NCBI GenBank assembly: GCA_019636235.1
Contig: JAHBXW010000010.1
Span: forward strand, 1-64,000
Direction: 5' to 3'
DNA: 64,000 nucleotides
Source of the DNA: Planctomyces sp.
GTDB lineage: Bacteria; Planctomycetota; Planctomycetia; Planctomycetales; Planctomycetaceae
The notes under the pieces: model-generated
What the model was told of the DNA's origin: nothing
Seen by the model: only the letters and a program-made list of their open reading frames with translations
The model's database searches: none
Program-made: the position numbers and the translations under genes
Shown here: positions 4,794 to 61,699 of the stretch, piece by piece
Numbering within the stretch: position 1 is the first letter of the stretch
Layout: each line of letters opens with the position of its first letter

Positions 4794-5900
4794 TCACCCC
4801 CGCCCGTCCGGACCGTCGCGGTCCGCCTGGTCTTCAAACTCGCGCATCGCGGCGATCAGCGCATCCACCCCCGCCGGCGGAAACGCGTTGTAGATGCTGG
4901 CCCGCATGCCGCCCACGCTGCGGTGCCCCTTCAGGCCGTCCAGCCCGCGGGCCTTCGCGAAGGCGATGAACTCGGCGTCCAGCGTCTCATCCCCCGTGAC
5001 GAACGTCACGTTCATCAGCGAGCGGCTGTCGGGCGCGGCCGTCGCGCGGAACAGCCGGCTGCGGTCCAGATGCGCGTACAGCTTGCCGGCCTTGTCCTCG
5101 TTGCGGGCGGCCAGGCCCTCCAGCCCCCCCTGGGACAGGATCCACTTGAAGACCTGCCCCATCAGGTAGATGCCGAACGTCGGCGGCGTGTTGTAACAGG
5201 AGTCGTCCGCGGCGTGCGTCCGGTACTGCAGCATCACCGGCAGGTCCTTCGAACCGCGTTCCACGAGATCCTTGCGGATGATCACCAGCGTCACGCCGGC
5301 CGGCCCGATGTTCTTCTGGGCGCCAGCGTAAATCAGTCCGTACTTCGCGACGTCGATCGGCCGGCTGAAGATGTCGCTCGACGCGTCGCAGATCAGCGGG
5401 ACGCCGGCGGGGGGCGTCGGCTCCTTCTGGAACTGCGTGCCGAAGATCGTGTTGTTCGAGGTGAAATGCGCGTACTTCGGGGCGCCGCTGTAGCGGACCT
5501 CTGATGGGATGTACGAAAAGTTCCGGTCCTCGCTGGTGCACGCGACATGCACGCGGCCGTACCGCTTGGCGTCGGCGACGGCCTTCTTCGACCAGGCCCC
5601 CGTCACGAGGTAATCGGCCGTGTCGCCTGGCGTCAAAAAGTTCATCGGCGCCATGTAGAACTGCGTCGACGCGCCCCCCGTCAGAAACAGGATGTCGTAG
5701 TCGTCGGGAATCTTCGCCAGCGTCCGGCAGTCGGCGATCGCCTGCAGCAGCACGGTCGAAAACGCTTTGCCCCGATGCGAGTGCTCGAGGACGCCAATGC
5801 CGGTGTTCGAGAGGTCCCAGAGGTCTTCACGGGCCTGCTGCAGCACGGGTTCGGGCAGGACGGCCGGCCCGGCGGAGAAGTTGAAAATGCGATTCGACAT
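4794..5900 (-). CDS. serC: Phosphoserine aminotransferase
   Basis: SerC is a PLP enzyme that converts 3-phosphohydroxypyruvate and glutamate to phosphoserine, the second step of serine synthesis, and can also act in pyridoxal phosphate synthesis. The 368-residue product matches the family length. It begins [14 protein letters not shown], has the [11 protein letters not shown] phosphate-binding segment and the PLP-lysine region [12 protein letters not shown] with the lysine near residue 196. The conserved [11 protein letters not shown] segment lies near the C-terminus. The gene stands alone between a convergent terminator and the divergent porin gene. serA, the preceding step, is about 57 kb away in this window. 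Confidence 0.97.
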
Positions 5901-6243
5901 GGACGGTTGCTGAGGTTGGAGAAGTCGCCGCGCCCGGCGGGACGTGCCCGCAGAGGGTATATCCCTCGCTTCTCGCCGGCGTCAACAAGCCGCAGGACGC
6001 GCGGAACGGGGTTCCGGTTCGCGGGAAACGCGGTCAGGCGACCGCCGGGGACCGACGCCCGCGGGCGTGCCGGGTCGACCGTCGGGGCCGGCGCCAGGCG
6101 GCTGGCCGGCCATCCGGGGGCGGTGAGAAACTGGCGGCGTGAAGCTGGCGGCAGGCCATTCTTAACAATTCATCATCAATCGAAAAAACCGGCACAACCG
6201 ATACATCTTCACAGACGGCGCGTCGAGTTCGCTTGCGCTCCGC
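5901..6243. other. Divergent promoter region between serC and the porin gene
   Basis: This 343-base gap separates two divergently transcribed genes and must hold both promoters. A conspicuously AT-rich patch at about 6160-6215 (including TTCTTAACAATTCATCATCA) stands out in the GC-rich surroundings just upstream of the porin start and is the likeliest promoter area. I cannot assign exact boxes and see no RNA gene. Confidence 0.45.
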
Positions 6244-7818
6244 ATGCGCGCCGCCCCTGGAGTTGCCCCCTTGCCTCTGCGCGTTCGCGACATTCCGCTG
6301 CTCGTCGCCCTTGCTCTGGCAGGTCTGGGGGTCCATCCGGCGAAAACCGCCGCTGACGAGTGGCCCGCATCGACCATTCGCGGTCAGTCGCCGTCCGGGG
6401 ATCTGTTTGAAGGTCAGATTCCCCGCGCCGAATCGTCGTCGGAGTTTCTGGCCCCGCCCGCTGCCGCGTCGCTTCCCGATGACGGGCCCGCCGCCGAGCT
6501 GGACAGCGCCCCGCCGCCCGACGACTGGAACGCCGCCGCCGCCCGGCTCTCCGCGCAGATCGAGGAACTGCAGGCGGAATTGAAGGACCTCAAGGCCGCC
6601 CCGCCGAAGTCCGACGACAAGAAAAAGGAGGAGAAGAAGGACAAGGCCTGGTACGAGAAACTCAACATCCGCGGGTACACGCAGTTCCGCTACAACGCTG
6701 TCCTGAACGATGAAGGAGATGCGCCGCCCCAGCACGTCGGCGACTTCTCCGTTCAGGAGGATCAGACGTTCCTCATCCGCCGGGCTCGCGTCATCCTGTT
6801 CGGCGACGTCAGCGATCATTTGTACGTCTACCTGCAGCCGGACTTCGCCGTCACGCCCCCGGGCAGCACGGACGGCATCCAGTTCCTGCAGATCCGCGAC
6901 TGGTATGGCGACATCTACTTCGACGACAACAAGGAGTACCGCGTCCGCGTCGGACAATCCAAGGTCCCCTATGGCTGGGAGAACCTGCAATCCAGCCAGA
7001 ACCGGCTGCCGCTCGACCGGGCCGACCCGTTGAACAGCGCCGTCCGCAACGAGCGCGACCTGGGCGCGTTCTTCTACTGGACGCCGACATGGGCCCAGGA
7101 TCGGTTCAAATACATCATGGACGAGGGCCTGAAGGGCTCGGGCAATTACGGCGTGTTCGGCATCGGCGCTTACGCCGGGCAGGGGGGCTCGCTCCGCGAG
7201 CAGAACGACAACGTCCACCTGGTGACGCGGCTCACGCTGCCGCTCCAGCTGGAGGACGGTCAGCTCGTGGAGTTCGGCGTGCAGGCCTACACGGGCCAGT
7301 ACGCGGTCCTGTCGACGCCCATCTCCCCGCTGGGCGTGGGGCCTCCCGTGCGCCCGACGGGAACGTTCGAAACGGGGGACGCCGACGGCAAGCTCGATCA
7401 GCGGATCGCGGGTTCGTTCATCTGGTATCCGCAGCCGTGGGGGTTCCAGTCGGAATGGACGGTGGGCCGCGGTCCGGCGCTCGACGACGCGCAGACGGCC
7501 GTCACGGATCGGCCTCTGTACGGCGGTTACGCCATGACGATGTATCGCATCCAGACGGAGTCCTGCGGCGAACTGTGGCCGTTCGCCCGTTGGTCGTACT
7601 TCAAAGGGGGCTACAAGTCCGAGCGGAATGCCCCCTGGTCGCACGTCAACGAGTGGGAACTTGGTCTCGAATGGCAGATCAGCAAGTCGATCGAGTTCGT
7701 CAGCATGTACACGATCACCGACCGCACGAACACGATCGCCCGCAACGTCGCCGACACCCGCTCCTATCAGCAGTTCCAGGGAGACTTGCTGCGGTTCCAG
7801 TTGCAGATGAACTACTGA
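6244..7818 (+). CDS. OprP/OprO-type outer-membrane porin
   Basis: The 524-residue product begins with a signal peptide (LLVALALAGLGVHPAKTAADEW). A coiled-coil segment follows around residues 95-130 (ARLSAQIEELQAELKDLKA, then a lysine-rich stretch). The remaining ~390 residues look like a beta-barrel of the phosphate-selective porin family: GYTQFRYNAV near the barrel start, RRARVILFGDVSDHLYVYLQPDF, VRVGQSKVPYGWENLQSS, and an end in LRFQLQMNY, a typical aromatic outer-membrane C-terminus. An N-terminal coiled coil before the barrel is common in planctomycete members. Substrate preference for phosphate is only a family inference. It overlaps the convergent DivIC-like gene by 7 bases. Confidence 0.88.
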   Translation: MRAAPGVAPLPLRVRDIPLLVALALAGLGVHPAKTAADEWPASTIRGQSPSGDLFEGQIPRAESSSEFLAPPAAASLPDDGPAAELDSAPPPDDWNAAAARLSAQIEELQAELKDLKAAPPKSDDKKKEEKKDKAWYEKLNIRGYTQFRYNAVLNDEGDAPPQHVGDFSVQEDQTFLIRRARVILFGDVSDHLYVYLQPDFAVTPPGSTDGIQFLQIRDWYGDIYFDDNKEYRVRVGQSKVPYGWENLQSSQNRLPLDRADPLNSAVRNERDLGAFFYWTPTWAQDRFKYIMDEGLKGSGNYGVFGIGAYAGQGGSLREQNDNVHLVTRLTLPLQLEDGQLVEFGVQAYTGQYAVLSTPISPLGVGPPVRPTGTFETGDADGKLDQRIAGSFIWYPQPWGFQSEWTVGRGPALDDAQTAVTDRPLYGGYAMTMYRIQTESCGELWPFARWSYFKGGYKSERNAPWSHVNEWELGLEWQISKSIEFVSMYTITDRTNTIARNVADTRSYQQFQGDLLRFQLQMNY

Positions 7819-53624: not shown

Positions 53625-55277
53625 TCAGACCCCGCCGACCGACGTCGTCGCCGTCTTCTGCAGCCCCGACACGTGAGCCCGCAGCACGTCCAGCTGGGCG
53701 ATGACCTTATCCTTCAGCGGCCCCGCGGACTTGAGGACCTTCTCGCTGTTGTTCTTTGCGAGATTGGCGCAGCGGACGATTTCGTCGATGGCCTCGATGT
53801 CGCTGGCGACGGTGTTCACCGCCACCTCCATTTCGTGATAGCAGACCGTCTGCTCGTTCATCGCCTTTTCGCGCTGGACGATCAGCGCCCGGGCGATCGA
53901 CAGCGCCGCCTTCAAATACACGTCCGTCGTCACGTCCTCCGGATCCCAGACGACAAACACGTCCTGTCCGAACCGGGTCAGCGGCTTCAGGTCGGTCGGC
54001 GCGTTGTTCCGGGCGAAGACGAACACGCCGAACGCGGCGTCCCGGTTCTTCCGGGCCGTCTGAATCTCCTCCCGCGCGTCCTTCAGCCGGACCACCTGCT
54101 TGTCCTTGGCCTCGATGACGATCCGCCCCTCCGGCGCTCCGGACTCCGCCGACAGCGTGATCACGAAATCGCCGACCTTGGAATTGTGGATGCTGCCCGG
54201 CCGCGTCCCCGTCGCGTCGACCAGGTCGCCATGCCCCTCGGCGTCCGCCGTCAGGAACCGCCCCAGCGCCGCCTCGAAGTCCAGACCGTGCGTCGTCGAA
54301 CGGGCCGCCTCCTGCTTGCGGACGTTCAGCGCCTCCAGCGTCGTCCGCACGTGTTCCTGGAAATCGGTCTGCTGCCGGTTCAGCTCCTGCATCACCTTCA
54401 GCAGCTCGCTGCGGAGTCGCGACAGCGGCGACTTCTCATCGTCCAGCGACAGCCGCGAATCGATCGAGCTGTTCGTCGTCTCCAGGAGCCGCGACAGCTT
54501 CCGCAGCGCGGACTGCTCATTGTCAGCCGAGAACTCCAGCAGGATCGTGCGGTTCGCCCGATCCACCTGTCCCACCAGCCGATGCAGCGCGCCGTCCTCG
54601 TTGTCCAGCGAGAATTCCTTGCGGACTGCTTCCAGGTCCTGCGTCAAAGCCGTCCGCAGGTCCCCGTTCTTCTGCGTCAACTCCGCGATGCAGCGCGACA
54701 GCGCCGACTGCCGGTCATCCAGCGAGAACTGACGCAGAATCGCCTCGCTCTGCTTCTGCACCACCTCGCCGATGGAGCCTGTCAATGCCGCCAGCAGCCC
54801 CCGCTTCTGATCGGGCGACAGCATCTGCAACAGCGGGCTCTGATCGCCGACATGCCGCTCCAGCATCCGCGACAGCGCCGAACCCTCGCCATGCAGGTGA
54901 GTCGCCAGCAGCGTCTCCAGCTCGCCGTCCTTGCAGATCAACCGGTCCAGACGACGCTGAAACTCGCCGCTCTGCGGATCGAAGAACCGGCCCAGCAGCG
55001 TCCCGACCCCCTGCGATACCGACTTCTCATGCTCGCGCAGCGTATCCTGAATGCCGTCCAGGAACCGCTCGCACTCCTGCTGCACCGACTGCGCGTCCAC
55101 GACGCCGGAGGCCTGGCGCACGGCCAGCACGCCGATCCGCAGGGCCGCCAGGGCGAACTGCTCGCGATCCGCGTCGATTTCGTGCTTCAACAGCTCGTGG
55201 ACCGTCTCCCGGTCAGTGACGTTCAGCTCCAGACGGATCGCGTTGTCCAGCTCGCCATTGACGCTCGTCCGATGCAT
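53625..55277 (-). CDS. Coiled-coil/repeat protein with PD-(D/E)XK nuclease-like domain
   Basis: The 550-residue product starts at ATG 55277, which follows GGGGAG. Residues ~95-300 are helical and contain a repeated unit of the form F-S-L-D-D/N-x-x-x-A-L-x-R-L: clear copies begin at 184, 222, 249 and 276, with weaker ones near 99 and 128. The C-terminal part has a PD-(D/E)XK-like core: Glu335 in LDFEAALGRFL, Asp370 in SKVGDFVITL, and Glu389-Ala-Lys391 in RIVIEAKDKQ. A later helical part follows (AREEIQTARKNRDAAFGVFVFA). The spacing fits restriction-endonuclease-fold enzymes, so DNA cleavage or DNA binding is possible but unproven. I know no characterised member. Confidence 0.78.
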   Translation of the reverse strand: MHRTSVNGELDNAIRLELNVTDRETVHELLKHEIDADREQFALAALRIGVLAVRQASGVVDAQSVQQECERFLDGIQDTLREHEKSVSQGVGTLLGRFFDPQSGEFQRRLDRLICKDGELETLLATHLHGEGSALSRMLERHVGDQSPLLQMLSPDQKRGLLAALTGSIGEVVQKQSEAILRQFSLDDRQSALSRCIAELTQKNGDLRTALTQDLEAVRKEFSLDNEDGALHRLVGQVDRANRTILLEFSADNEQSALRKLSRLLETTNSSIDSRLSLDDEKSPLSRLRSELLKVMQELNRQQTDFQEHVRTTLEALNVRKQEAARSTTHGLDFEAALGRFLTADAEGHGDLVDATGTRPGSIHNSKVGDFVITLSAESGAPEGRIVIEAKDKQVVRLKDAREEIQTARKNRDAAFGVFVFARNNAPTDLKPLTRFGQDVFVVWDPEDVTTDVYLKAALSIARALIVQREKAMNEQTVCYHEMEVAVNTVASDIEAIDEIVRCANLAKNNSEKVLKSAGPLKDKVIAQLDVLRAHVSGLQKTATTSVGGV

Positions 55278-55553
55278 GAGGACTCCCCGCTCATAAACGG
55301 ATGTGTCTGGCTGCCGGATCCGGCGGCCCGTGGTCGTTCGGCCTCTCCCGCCCACAGTGTACGAATACACACGTGCGACGCAACCACGATCCGGCGGCCT
55401 CGATGCTGGCCGGCCCCGAGGACTGATGGCGGACAACGCGACCGCTCCGCGAGCCTCGCCGCAATGTGGGCAACGCCCGCGACAACAGCTCTGGCGTCGC
55501 GGGACGCCGCGCGGCGCGAGTCGATTGACACCACTCGCCGATCCGCGTGAAAT

Positions 55554-57145: not shown

Positions 57146-60100
57146 TCAGCGATCGAAGCTGGCGGGCGGAAGGGCGGCCTGCCGCGGCGGAGCAAACGAA
57201 CGCGGCGGCGCCGGGAGCCCGGGCACGGTGCTGACCGCCCGCGGCAGCGTCGCGGGAGGAGTGCGAAGGAAGGACATATCGGAATCGGCGGGCTGAGTTG
57301 CCGGCGCTGGCTCGGCGGCCGTTGCCGGCAGCGCCGCAGCCGGTGCCCCGGCATTTGGCGTCCGCGCCGTCGTATCGCCTCCCGCTGCAGGCGGAGTTCC
57401 GCCTGAAGTTCCCGTAGACGGCGCGGGCGGGCAGGGGCACTGGACGTTGATGTTCGCGGGCTTGGTCCCGCCCAGCGGATCGATGACGTCCACCTTCACT
57501 TTCAAGACGCCCTCGACGCGGATGACGGGTTGGGCGTCCGAATGCGTCGTCAGCGGGAAAGCGCCATCCTTCTCCTTGAACCGCAGGTAGCCGACGATGT
57601 GAACTTCCTCGGTGTCAGGATGCACTTCGCCACGTTTCAGCAAGTCGGCAATCTGCGATTGGAACTTGCCAAGATCGACCGACGCCCGCCTAGCGGAGCC
57701 GAACGACGTGAATTCCACGGGGATGTCCGTTTGCGACCCCCCGCGTTTCTCCGGATCCTTGTCCTTTCTCTTGACGGAGACAACACATCGCAGATCGGCC
57801 TGCTCTCCCTTGAATGGCGAATCCGTGGCATCGACCAGCCACAGCGGCGACGGATAACAGAAAGCTTCGACTTCCCGGCAGTTGCTGAGCAGAATCCGGC
57901 CGATCGCTTCAGTCTTGTCCCACAGCACCTTGTCGACGTGCTTGTCGGCGACGTGCTTGGCGACGACCTTTTCGATCTCCGCCTCGGCCTTGCCGATTTC
58001 GGTCGCCGGCACCAGCAGATGGTTGGAAACTCCGTAGGGCGTCGCGATGTGAATGTCGACCCGGCCGTCGACGACGCGGACGTCGCTCGGCACCTCGATT
58101 CTCATGATCTGACGGCTGAGAATCTGAGGCGTCAACCTCCGATTTCCAGCGATGACGTGGGCCTCATGGACGCTGAAGTTGTCCCCGACAAGAAACAGAC
58201 TGGTGATGGGATTGTACGGCTCCGCTTTGGGCTTCTGATTCGCGGCCGCCGTCCAGACAGCCGGCGGATTCACCTGGATGCCGGGCTCGCCGTAGAAGCC
58301 GTGCAGCTCGGGCGCCAGATCGGGCACTCCGCTGTTGAAGAACTCGAAGCCGCCCAGCGAGTTCTCATACGGCATCGGGACATGGGCCGTTTGCAGCGGA
58401 AGCCGCTGTTCGAGCTGATGTACGGCCCGCGTCAGCCGGTACACTTCGTCGGGTCGATACAGATGGGCGTCCTGCGCACATTCCATAGACAGCGACTTGA
58501 GGCAGGTGATCTCCTGGCTCAACTCCATCGACTTCCGCAGGTCCAGCTCGTGCTTCTTCGGGTTCGTCAAACGGAACCAGTTTGATCGCACGTCAAAAAT
58601 CACGTACGGCACGAACGACGGCATGATGACGATCGCGGTGCACTCCCGGATGCCTGGTTCCAGTCGCCGCTGCTTGATCAGCGAATCGCGGCTCTGGCCT
58701 CCCCACAGCAAGTCCCGCACGGCGACTTTGCAGTTGCTGTCGCTGTCGGGATTCTGCACACGCGGAGAGAACCGCCAGCCGAAGGTGTCGTCCCCATGCG
58801 AGAAGCCGACGGCCGTCCGGTTCAGTGCAATCGTTTCCTGATCGAGCTCCAGCCGCCGCGCGTACTGGGTGAAGTTCTGAGCGCTCATTCGGCCGCTGGC
58901 GAACGCCAACGACATGGCCAGCTGCATCTCGCGACGCATGCTGAACGCATCGGCCACGTTCTGGTCGTCGGTCACAGGATCGAGAGCCACGACATGGATC
59001 GGCCAACGGCAGGCGACGTACTGGTTGAAGACGGCCCGCGCTTCCGGGCACGGATTCGGATGACTGAACTGGAGGCCGTCTGCGTGGAGATGGATGGCGT
59101 TCTTGGCCGCCGCCAGATGTCGAATGTCCTCCACGAGCCGCTCGTTGAGCAACGCCGACTCCACCAGAATCAGCCAGGCCAGAGCGGCGACGTGGCCGTT
59201 CGGCTCCACCGATTGGGAGACTTGCGTCACCGTTGCTTGAAACTGGCATCGCAGGTTGCTGAGCAAGACCTTGTCCGACGTTCTGACAGCATGGACGATC
59301 GAGTCCGAACACTGATCCCAGAAGATCGGGGTGCGGACCAGGAATTCGTACGCATGGTCGGCCTCCTGCAGCAACGTCTTCTGGACGTCCAGCAGAAGCA
59401 CATGCGGCGTGTGCAGCGGTTCCGACTTCAGGCCCGCGGCCAGAACGGCGAGGCCGCCGAGCATCTGGCAATCGACGATGTCGACGAGCTGGGAAGGCGG
59501 GAAGGGCATCTGCGCCCGGCGGCCGGGGGAGACGGGAGCGTCAAAAGTTACCTTCTCGCGAAGAGCTTCGTTCGCAGCAATCTGCGAGCGAAGCTCGTCA
59601 GCGGCTGCGTTAGCAGACGCTAGTTGATCATACAGCTTCTCGTCTTCAACTTGCTTTGCCGCATTCGCAAGTTCTAACTTCGCGGCCTCAAGCTGGCTCA
59701 TGATGGCTGCTTGCTGCGAATTCAAGTTTGCGAGTTTCGACTTGTCTAACGATTCACTCAACTGAATTCCTGACATCTGATTTGAAAGCGACTCAATCTG
59801 ATTGTCGTAGTCCTGCAACTGAGCCCGCCGCTGTTCCAAATCGGCTGCAATTCCAAGTAGTAGATTGTCGATTGGTTCCTCGGCCGCTTGAACCTGGACT
59901 CCCTGTGCAGATATGTTCGCCTGCATTCGATTCGCGAGCCACAGGCGATCCGTTTCGCCAGATTCCATCGACTCAGTTACTGCAGCCCGCGCGGCGTTTC
60001 GGATCACGGGATTCTTGAGGTCTGAGACGTACTTTGCCTCACGGGCGCTTAGGTTGGCAATTTCCAATCGGAGACGTGCCTTGAGTGATTCCAGTTCTTT

Positions 60101-61216
60101 GAGATGAGTTTCCGCTGTGTTCAACTGTGATTTCGTTGAAAGACGCTCGAATTGAAGTTCTGTTGACCTTGCGTTCAGTGCTGCAATCCGCGCCTCGATG
60201 TGACATATCTGTGCTAGGATCGCCCTAAGCTCTGTTTGTTGCTTCCGTGCGTCCTCGTCGGCCTTCTTGAGCTCTTCATCGCTAGGTTCTTTGCAGCCAT
60301 GCTTCTGAAGCGTCTTGGCAAACTTCATCGCGTCCTTGCGGTCCACCAGCTTCGTCAACGGGAATGTCAGCACATCGACAACATCATTGACGACCAAATG
60401 GCGAAACACTTTGGGGAGCAGTTCATCATGCAGGTGCGGCTTGGCGGTGATCGTGACCTCCGCTCCAAAGCCTTCGCGCGTCCGGGAGCCCGGCATCACC
60501 GAGACCGGAATCCGCACGAGATTCAGCGAGTAGCCGGGAAAGTCCGCGACGTCGTCGCCATCATTGATCCGGCGCAGATGATGGAGATGATTCAGATAGC
60601 GAGAGCGTTGATCGAGGCTGATCACCGGCTCGAGCGCAATCTCCTTCTCAAGCCGCTTCGTTTTCAACAGGCCGCCGGGATCCGTCGATGCGCCGGAGGG
60701 CGAGACCGCGCCCATCAGCTCGGCCGCCGATGGCCCTCCGGGAATGGCGATTGGCTCGCGCGTGCGAACCGGCTCATCGGCAGGAGCCGTTGTCTCTGCG
60801 GGCGTCGATGTGGTCGTCACCTGAACATTCGACTGCGTCGGCGCCGGAGTCGACCCTTTGCGCCGTCCACTGCCGATGGCGGCCTGGAGCGCGAAGGCGT
60901 TTGCCAGGAAGGCGTTGTCGCTGCGTGCGATCGACGCATTGATCGTGTCTCCGAACGCATCGAGCTGCTTGCTCATCTGCTGTTCGTATTCGAGGCGATA
61001 CTTCGTCAGCCGCGCTTCGCCCCACACGTCCGGGGTCTTGGCGACGACCGTCCCGTATTCGTCAATGTGACGTTCCAACTTGTCGATCTGCTTCGCCAGA
61101 CGCTCCACCGTCGTCGTCCCGGCAAACGGGTTCCCCGCCGTGCACAACATCGGCGAGATCAGATTCAGGACGCTCGCGCTCAGCGCCGCCCACATGCCCA
61201 CACGCATCCGTCTCAT
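57146..61216 (-). CDS. Giant secreted coiled-coil protein of unknown function
   Basis: The product is 1,356 residues from ATG 61216, which follows GAGGGG. A signal peptide (GMWAALSASVLNLISPMLC) is followed by an N-terminal helical region (TTTVERLAKQIDKLERHIDEYG) and a globular part with SRYLNHLHHLRRINDGDDVAD. A long coiled coil covers about residues 300-550 (SQLNTAETHLKELESLKARL, LDKSKLANLNSQQAAIMSQL). Several beta-rich segments follow, including SLFLVGDNFSVHEAHVIAGN, which resembles an IPT/TIG-like fold, and the end is proline/alanine-rich with a CPCPP motif. No catalytic motif was seen. A surface or envelope structural role is likely. The coiled-coil section is encoded by markedly lower-GC DNA. 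Confidence 0.82.
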   Translation of the reverse strand: MRRMRVGMWAALSASVLNLISPMLCTAGNPFAGTTTVERLAKQIDKLERHIDEYGTVVAKTPDVWGEARLTKYRLEYEQQMSKQLDAFGDTINASIARSDNAFLANAFALQAAIGSGRRKGSTPAPTQSNVQVTTTSTPAETTAPADEPVRTREPIAIPGGPSAAELMGAVSPSGASTDPGGLLKTKRLEKEIALEPVISLDQRSRYLNHLHHLRRINDGDDVADFPGYSLNLVRIPVSVMPGSRTREGFGAEVTITAKPHLHDELLPKVFRHLVVNDVVDVLTFPLTKLVDRKDAMKFAKTLQKHGCKEPSDEELKKADEDARKQQTELRAILAQICHIEARIAALNARSTELQFERLSTKSQLNTAETHLKELESLKARLRLEIANLSAREAKYVSDLKNPVIRNAARAAVTESMESGETDRLWLANRMQANISAQGVQVQAAEEPIDNLLLGIAADLEQRRAQLQDYDNQIESLSNQMSGIQLSESLDKSKLANLNSQQAAIMSQLEAAKLELANAAKQVEDEKLYDQLASANAAADELRSQIAANEALREKVTFDAPVSPGRRAQMPFPPSQLVDIVDCQMLGGLAVLAAGLKSEPLHTPHVLLLDVQKTLLQEADHAYEFLVRTPIFWDQCSDSIVHAVRTSDKVLLSNLRCQFQATVTQVSQSVEPNGHVAALAWLILVESALLNERLVEDIRHLAAAKNAIHLHADGLQFSHPNPCPEARAVFNQYVACRWPIHVVALDPVTDDQNVADAFSMRREMQLAMSLAFASGRMSAQNFTQYARRLELDQETIALNRTAVGFSHGDDTFGWRFSPRVQNPDSDSNCKVAVRDLLWGGQSRDSLIKQRRLEPGIRECTAIVIMPSFVPYVIFDVRSNWFRLTNPKKHELDLRKSMELSQEITCLKSLSMECAQDAHLYRPDEVYRLTRAVHQLEQRLPLQTAHVPMPYENSLGGFEFFNSGVPDLAPELHGFYGEPGIQVNPPAVWTAAANQKPKAEPYNPITSLFLVGDNFSVHEAHVIAGNRRLTPQILSRQIMRIEVPSDVRVVDGRVDIHIATPYGVSNHLLVPATEIGKAEAEIEKVVAKHVADKHVDKVLWDKTEAIGRILLSNCREVEAFCYPSPLWLVDATDSPFKGEQADLRCVVSVKRKDKDPEKRGGSQTDIPVEFTSFGSARRASVDLGKFQSQIADLLKRGEVHPDTEEVHIVGYLRFKEKDGAFPLTTHSDAQPVIRVEGVLKVKVDVIDPLGGTKPANINVQCPCPPAPSTGTSGGTPPAAGGDTTARTPNAGAPAAALPATAAEPAPATQPADSDMSFLRTPPATLPRAVSTVPGLPAPPRSFAPPRQAALPPASFDR

Positions 61217-61699
61217 GAGAGGCCCCTCGTTTCGCTCGTAGCGAAGTCTGTGCGAACAGAAACGTGGATCAGCGGCCCGCCCTGTGGCCCCCGCCGTCCA
61301 GACGCCGCCCGCACAACAGCGTCGCTCCGAAGAATCGGCCCGACCCGACGAACTCCTCCCGCCATTCCCGTTGGAACAACCCCAACCCGTCATTGGAGCA
61401 TTCCGCCGCGCCGTTCAGCTTGCCCGGCTTGCCCGACCGGACCCGCATGCGTGAGGGAATTCCCGCACAAATCCGGAGAAACCTTCGCAAAACACCGTCG
61501 ATCTCTGCCCTCCGCTGCGTTGAATCCGCAGACCAGCGGAGACATCCCATCCGCACGCCAGCCAGCTCCGTTGTCATCACTGGGACGACGCTGGCGCGAT
61601 TTGCGCGCGGCGGCTAATCGCGACCGAATTGCTGTTCAGCCGCCGGAGAGGAACCTGAATCGCTGGCGAGGCCGGACTCAACCGTCGCTCGGCGCGCCC
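61217..61699. other. Intergenic region between serA and the giant coiled-coil gene
   Basis: Both flanking genes run leftward, so this 483-base gap should hold the end of the serA transcript and the promoter of the coiled-coil gene. A frame of 103 codons at 61269-61580 on the reverse strand has no ribosome-binding site or domain and I do not call it. No RNA gene, repeat or clear hairpin terminator was found. Confidence 0.45.

Follow-up and report, generated by a model that had tools for sequence, protein, structure and literature searches.

Proteins that join a coiled coil to a PD-(D/E)XK nuclease domain are a known kind of architecture, represented by RmuC, DUF3782, the CoCoNuTs and DUF2130. 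RmuC, as described for E. coli, combines a coiled coil and a PD-(D/E)XK domain with an N-terminal transmembrane helix, and its function was proposed there without a partner protein (PMC1189080). According to the description of the Shield system, a single membrane-anchored nuclease with an RmuC domain, ShdA, suffices for anti-phage defence (PMC10270631). The DUF3782 endonucleases of crenarchaea carry their PD-(D/E)XK domain on a regularly interrupted coiled coil, and the same source reports that insertion of a heptad plus two residues forces a beta-layer (PMC4786415). The coiled-coil nuclease tandems, or CoCoNuTs, are McrBC-type systems described as having extensive coiled coils and nuclease domains (PMC11090510). 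In DUF2130 proteins (PF09903), judging by their sequences, a coiled coil likewise stands ahead of the domain.

Here we describe a gene from the 64,000-nucleotide stretch of Planctomyces sp. DNA that was analysed (the window). On the basis of sequence comparison and structure modelling, its product most likely belongs to a family of PD-(D/E)XK nucleases that has no name and whose members carry a stalk but lack a membrane anchor. In the window protein the highest 19-residue hydropathy is 1.45 and no anchor was found, which sets it apart from both E. coli RmuC (PMC1189080) and ShdA (PMC10270631), as these are described. As far as we found in the open-licence literature, where a nameless family had to be sought through similar systems, the segmented rod and the N-terminal region seen here are undescribed.

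The window gene and its predicted nuclease domain

The original prediction gave the correct coordinates for the gene but not its strand, which is minus (Table 1); a genome search found the gene as a single copy in the 5.6 Mb genome. Its product shares 33-45% identity with 50 relatives and passes no Pfam or NCBIfam cut-off (best E values 0.031 and 0.072, far under the cut-offs). Most of the gene is covered by a 625-aa antisense open frame (53673-55550, plus strand) that looks like a high-GC artefact; used as a query, the antisense reading matched only its own locus in the genome. Within the window the gene is flanked by half of a transketolase and by a PQQ-type beta-propeller. The best matches of the two flanking genes were distant from one another in the seven single-contig genomes searched. 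At 57146-61393 on the minus strand a large protein is predicted (1415 aa counted from the first ATG); it has helical, coiled-coil-like stretches by eye, and 57149-61219 gave no Pfam match at E 1e-5.

Table 1. Features of the gene and its predicted protein, in window coordinates
Feature	Residues	Position	Strand	Basis
Whole gene, 550 aa		53625..55277	-	ATG at 55277, stop at 53627-53625
Shine-Dalgarno-like GGGGAG		55288-55283	-	5 nt upstream of ATG
Conserved N-terminal region	14-56	55110..55238	-	Alignment, model; common to archaeal relatives
Predicted helix	62-98	54984..55094	-	AlphaFold2 model; hydrophobic period 3.72
First rod part, degenerate units, including weak repeats 126 and 153	99-183	54729..54983	-	Repeat matrix, fixed spacings
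Repeat unit 1, 38 residues, FSLDDRQSALSRCI...	184-221	54615..54728	-	Regular expression and position matrix
Repeat unit 2, 27 residues, FSLDNEDGALHRLV...	222-248	54534..54614	-	Regular expression and position matrix
Repeat unit 3, 27 residues, FSADNEQSALRKLS...	249-275	54453..54533	-	Regular expression and position matrix
Repeat unit 4 (LSLDDEKSPLSRLR...) and long helix into nuclease domain	276-328	54294..54452	-	AlphaFold2 model and position matrix
Predicted PD-(D/E)XK nuclease domain	329-448	53934..54293	-	AlphaFold2, Foldseek, VIA; Mrr_cat in L047
Helix A glutamate	E335	54273..54275	-	50/51 sequences
Presumed metal-binding aspartate of motif	D370	54168..54170	-	51/51 sequences
(D/E)XK motif	E389-A390-K391	54105..54113	-	E389 and K391 in 51/51
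Single predicted C-terminal helix	449-548	53634..53933	-	AlphaFold2 model, periodicity

Family comparisons drew on 61 loci, 60 from genomes and one viral. At 55 of these an open reading frame matched, and the 50 matches spanning at least 440 residues were aligned with the query as A3 (51 proteins); a further set, A1, holds 28 proteins. Five proteins were omitted from A3 as partial (L095, L098, L106, L107 and L108). The six loci without a matching frame (L089, L093, L099, L104, L105 and L109) owe this at least partly to the caller, which favoured longer antisense frames. N-terminal extensions were trimmed in A3, so that some of its rows start off a start codon.

The original prediction proposed a PD-(D/E)XK fold with E335, D370, E389 and K391 at its site, and named structure prediction and matches to nuclease folds as the way to check it. 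Both now support the proposal well. AlphaFold2 gives a confident restriction-endonuclease fold at residues 329-446, with block-mean pLDDT of 87-97 over residues 331-450 and the element order alpha-beta-beta-beta-alpha-beta. In the model E335 lies in the first helix, D370 directly before a strand, and E389 and K391 in the third strand. All four residues are present in the window protein and conserved as listed in Table 1, the distance from D370 to E389 is 19 residues in 51/51 sequences, and E404, N411, R412 and W444 are also invariant (each 51/51). Given their positions in the predicted elements and the structure matches, D370, E389 and K391 would be expected to cluster in space.

The leading Foldseek rows are mostly restriction and repair nucleases, including MspJI, EcoT38I, Bax1 and McrC at probability 1.00. 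Judging by their titles, we take 14 of the top 16 rows to be PD-(D/E)XK nucleases; the exceptions are the N-terminal domain of the rhomboid YqgP at rank 4 and a protein of unknown function at rank 11. E values in these 16 rows run from 0.01 to 0.1, with none at 0.001. VIA re-alignment returned McrC at Z 9.8 (121 residues, rmsd 3.1), Can2 at 9.6-9.8 and Bax1 at 9.3, over 113-122 residues; models without a clear match typically reach Z 7-8, against which 9.8 is only somewhat higher. Searches for solved relatives by sequence found no nuclease, either by phmmer with the window protein (best E 0.035, a MarR regulator) or with the A1 profile (best E 0.043, coiled-coil proteins). We regard a nuclease fold with an intact site as very probable.

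By their Pfam cut-offs, RmuC, DUF2130 and Mrr_cat do not take in the window protein. The comparison with RmuC that the original prediction suggested fails: the protein does not reach the gathering cut-off of RmuC (PF02646) and has no match to it, no RmuC was found in the genome, and hhalign gave E 0.29 (with two sequences on the RmuC side). We therefore reject kinship with RmuC. The conserved GGD...WExKR of DUF2130 aligns with G369-D370...E389-x-K391 of the window protein at hhalign E 0.002, with a probability of only 14%, and the DUF2130 gathering cut-off is reached neither by the window protein, which has no match, nor by its relative L087, which comes close with the best score noted among relatives (24.0 against 26.7 bits). 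The same genome also encodes a true DUF2130 coiled-coil protein (G000:C34:62404-63132, 264 bits); by eye, the DUF2130 proteins compared lack FSLD units and show a CPxC stretch close to their start.

Mrr_cat (PF04471), known from type IV restriction, belongs to the same superfamily as the window family. Of ten proteins scanned singly, one, the archaeal homologue L047, scores above the Mrr_cat cut-off (27.6 against 21 bits), and 17 of the 51 A3 members match at E values no higher than 0.1 (best 1.7e-4). The window protein itself has no Mrr_cat match, there is none at E 0.001 genome-wide, and the matched stretch excludes the family's rod and N-terminal region. DUF3782 (PMC4786415), the closest architectural precedent, is not among the best 25 of 32 and of 67 Pfam families listed. 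McrC, the top VIA match of the nuclease domain, recalls the McrBC-type CoCoNuTs; unlike these, the bacterial gene has no recurrent partner. PADLOC gave no match for the window protein. Of its candidates, PDC-S06 is matched most often among the relatives, weakly and in 17/51 (best E 5.6e-5), the match lying in the rod in the one member with coordinates; PDC-S02, also weak, covers 44 residues of the nuclease domain in three of the four archaeal relatives scanned (E 3.6e-4 to 0.0047).

The segmented rod and the terminal regions

The repeat region spans residues 99-328, and its strong units have the consensus F-S-L-D-x-x-x-S-A-L-x-R-L. The original prediction's count of four clear and two weaker copies was right. 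Scored with a matrix of 136 units from the 50 other A3 proteins, the query being excluded, strong units begin at 184 (29.3), 222 (37.8), 249 (23.1) and 276 (28.1), and weak units at 126 (10.2) and 153 (3.2). Across 2000 query shuffles, the 95th and 99.9th percentiles of the best score per shuffle were 2.3 and 10.3, so that unit 153 is barely past the 95% level. A strict regular expression found three copies in the query; 20000 shuffles averaged 0.0016 copies and never gave more than 1. Degenerate units of the types YFDPxSGxF..., KDGELE..., GExSALSRML... and LSPDQ... make up the first part of the rod, where the F99-L113 and S133-S147 distances are 14 residues each in 51/51 sequences.

Spacings between repeats are strongly restricted. 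Across the 51 A3 proteins, 113 of 117 are either 27 (71 cases) or 38 residues (42 cases), and the remaining four are 31, 31, 69 and 16; inspection of the printed rods by eye revealed units of 20 residues in L038 and L040 and one of 16 residues in L090. Rod length, measured from F184 to L278, takes five values in the 28/28 A1 proteins: 94 (n=7), 67 (n=9), 56 (n=5), 49 (n=2) and 40 (n=5). The steps between them are 27 (94 to 67 and 67 to 40), 11 (67 to 56) and 7 (56 to 49), corresponding to one unit, a hendecad and a heptad, so that helix register is kept, as expected for coiled-coil helices. This five-value result belongs to A1; in A3 the length was measurable in 19/51 rows, all at 94, since for the remaining rows the alignment had the last unit in a different position.

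Hydrophobic periodicity beyond that of 95% of shuffles was found in seven of nine segments tested, with periods of 3.51-3.85. Besides the helix at 62-98 (Table 1), these include 155-183 (3.85), 190-222 (3.67), 229-248 (3.55) and 284-326 (3.59), together with the C-terminal helix, whose period of 3.51 over 449-545 is carried by 500-545 (3.57). Segments 256-276 and 449-500 had no significant period. Core positions of the unit are 1, 3, 10, 13 and 17, with 24 added in three of the four units. AlphaFold2 breaks the helix at all four repeat sites (184-191, 223-229, 248-256 and 276-283), at modest confidence: with a block-mean pLDDT of 44-74 across residues 181-280 and a pTM of 0.39, the overall arrangement is not predicted. 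An antiparallel hairpin bundle is unlikely because the number of units differs by one between relatives, and we infer that the rod is extended and parallel. Periodicity and register-preserving length changes lend indirect support to an oligomeric rod and, going by these sequence patterns, the protein is probably a coiled-coil oligomer.

Residues 14-98 form a conserved N-terminal part, separate from the repeats. Within it, residues 14-56 comprise an extended stretch followed by two helices (consensus LxLxVxDPExxxEL...R..FALxALRIGVLALRQA), for which no confident match to a known domain was obtained. A ribbon-helix-helix fold, attractive here by eye in view of the strand and two helices, was unsupported: there was no such match in PDB sequences or Pfam, and hhalign against four ribbon-helix-helix stretches gave 1% probability. 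A separate model of residues 10-100 had no structure match above Z 4.1, and ribbon-helix-helix proteins were not among the matches listed, which leaves that fold possible.

Distribution and gene neighbourhoods

The gene is present in 12 of 59 genomes in a sample of relatives, its own included, and missing from the one other genome of the genus. In a sample of the phylum it was found in 30 of 294 genomes, five of these 30 being weak matches (E 3.9e-16 to 9.1e-4). Record titles assign the 60 named loci to Planctomycetota, Myxococcota or Deltaproteobacteria, Acidobacteriota, Chloroflexota, Pseudomonadota (Ramlibacter and Sedimenticola), Latescibacterota and a Coriobacteriia bin, giving by title at least five phyla beyond Planctomycetota. 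Most records are metagenome bins, with Aeoliella and Ramlibacter the only isolates. The family tree, in which 15 of 48 inner branches are starred, requires 11 changes of phylum label, against a minimum of 5 and a shuffled mean of 16.4, a pattern that suggests transfer between phyla.

Two bacterial copies look decayed, G278 being shortened by one TAA and G029 a stop-containing remnant at the edge of a contig. No copy was found at E 1e-5 in phage records or in bacterial plasmid records, the only plasmid matches being archaeal. Two scans of viral contigs yielded one relative, at 5001-6485 of locus L111 on the 183 kb IMG/VR contig IMGVR_UViG_3300044695_008209, which may be a large phage or a misassigned contig; about 3 kb downstream of it lies a frame that by eye is GyrB/ParE-like.

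Relatives with 24-32% identity are carried by seven archaeal plasmids. They are homologous over most of their length (hhalign 99.9%, E 5.8e-37, 382 columns), have the same N-terminal region and keep the order FE...GD...E-x-K in 7/7; two of the seven are annotated as restriction endonucleases. In L047, L127 and L128 repeat-like units outscore the 99.9% shuffle level, and by eye the haloarchaeal rods contain 14-residue units of the type FGEDGELxxxLxxx.

No recurrent partner was found in bacteria, where clusters of non-family proteins, obtained with a simple ORF caller, recur in at most 5 of the 61 loci. A Pfam scan of 74 directly adjacent ORFs, from 140 candidates, gave 76 families, of which the 25 most frequent are metabolic, peptidase, TPR, PDZ types and the like. 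Neither a nuclease nor a methyltransferase nor a nucleic-acid helicase is among these 25 families; single defence genes could escape such a listing.

Archaeal plasmids present a different set of neighbours. AAA, VWA and MBL-fold genes lie near the relative in Haloferax, Halobaculum litoreum and H. rubrum, accompanied in the first two by a UvrD helicase, and the Halosegnis locus contains ExoVII, a PD-(D/E)XK nuclease and a helicase. A UvrD-type helicase occurs within ~8 kb in 3/7 archaeal plasmid loci, with ExoVII in one of them; Pfam confirmed helicase-type AAA_11/AAA_12 and AAA proteins at L127 and a UvrD/PDDEXK_1 protein at L050. The Methanomethylovorans relative adjoins a methyltransferase and a DEAD/DEAH helicase, and the Halobiforma and Natrinema loci hold mainly unnamed genes. 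At three haloarchaeal loci (L048 1-9000, L127 1-16759 and L128 4800-15700) the nuclease relative sits inside a shared gene cluster that contains a helicase or AAA ATPase, VWA and MBL-fold genes and, in two of the three, an HHH/AAA protein. This cluster may be a repair or defence module.

Candidate functions of the family

The reading we prefer, evenly poised in our judgement between being right and being wrong, is that of a stalked, oligomeric, metal-dependent DNase that acts alone in DNA maintenance. Rod segments would pair in register with those of other copies to form a parallel coiled-coil oligomer, which would join two or more catalytic heads and so allow both DNA strands to be cut with Mg2+. 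The rod would fix the distance between the nuclease heads and the N-terminal region, and the latter would serve as a binding or regulatory end. In a weaker step of the argument, the gene's isolation and the lack of a lasting partner in bacteria would mean that the protein works unaided to maintain the genome, dealing with structured or broken DNA as proposed for RmuC, and not within an operonic defence system. Maintenance, to which we give about an even chance, is favoured by the gene's solitude and by what lies next to it; patchiness, loss and the weak PADLOC candidate matches favour defence, which is a serious possibility short of even.

As a single-gene defence nuclease, comparable to a type IV restriction enzyme or to ShdA, the protein would wait as an oligomer and break down invading DNA, either in response to a signal or through recognition of modified DNA. 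Solitude is compatible with such a role, since ShdA, in the description available, is a single sufficient nuclease protein that defends alone (PMC10270631). Patchy presence (12/59 and 30/294 genomes) is more typical of an accessory or defence gene than of one for core repair, and the decayed copies, G278 with its one TAA and the G029 remnant, point the same way. So do Mrr_cat as the most frequent weak Pfam match (17/51 at E up to 0.1), the PDC-S02 matches of 3/4 archaeal relatives scanned and the methyltransferase and helicase beside the Methanomethylovorans relative. Set against this are the window protein's lack of a PADLOC match, the position of the PDC-S06 match in the rod in the one member with coordinates, the non-defence character of the adjacent bacterial Pfam families (best 25 of 76), and the lack of any copy in phage or bacterial plasmid records at E 1e-5. 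We rate a defence role as plausible, but not as the likelier one.

The archaeal neighbourhoods raise the further alternative of joint action with helicases in DNA-end processing, the bacterial partner being encoded elsewhere in the genome. The UvrD-type genes near 3/7 archaeal loci, ExoVII in one of them, and the Pfam-confirmed proteins at L127 and L050 speak for it; this evidence, however, comes from plasmid context at 24-32% identity, and bacterial loci have no such recurrent neighbour, and we consider a helicase partnership improbable. Many descendants of the PD-(D/E)XK fold have lost activity, and the rod and conserved N-terminal region point to a structural role, so the protein might instead lack catalysis and serve in DNA binding or as a scaffold, its nuclease fold being retained only as a DNA-binding module. 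We consider this very improbable, since the site is kept in 50-51 of 51 sequences and FE...GD...E-x-K in 7/7 archaeal relatives, which would be unexpected for an idle site.

A more specific reading of the rod draws on DUF3782. Its breaks at FSLD could be beta-layers or similar crossing points within a trimeric alpha/beta coiled coil that bears three PD-(D/E)XK heads and varies in length by 27- and 11-residue steps, making the protein a nuclease ruler of adjustable length in bacteria and archaea. The F-S-L-D-[DN]-E pattern resembles the beta-layer consensus [aliphatic]-A-T-K-[polar]-[DE] given for DUF3782, and core positions 1 and 10 of the unit are nine residues apart, the heptad plus two of that account (PMC4786415). 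The A-T-K motif itself does not occur in the window protein, and the breaks in the single-chain model are 7-9 residues long compared with the three of a beta-layer, which weakens the case. We regard this reading as rather doubtful.

Whichever role applies, the window protein has a name in neither Pfam nor NCBIfam, and its family, present in bacteria and archaea alike, combines an intact nuclease site with a rod whose length varies without loss of helical register. If the family is defensive, it would be a self-contained defence nuclease of the kind that gene-neighbourhood methods would miss, because no neighbours are kept. If the rod oligomerises, the stalks of different length found in the family would provide a ready-made natural set with which to study how cutting depends on the distance between nuclease heads.
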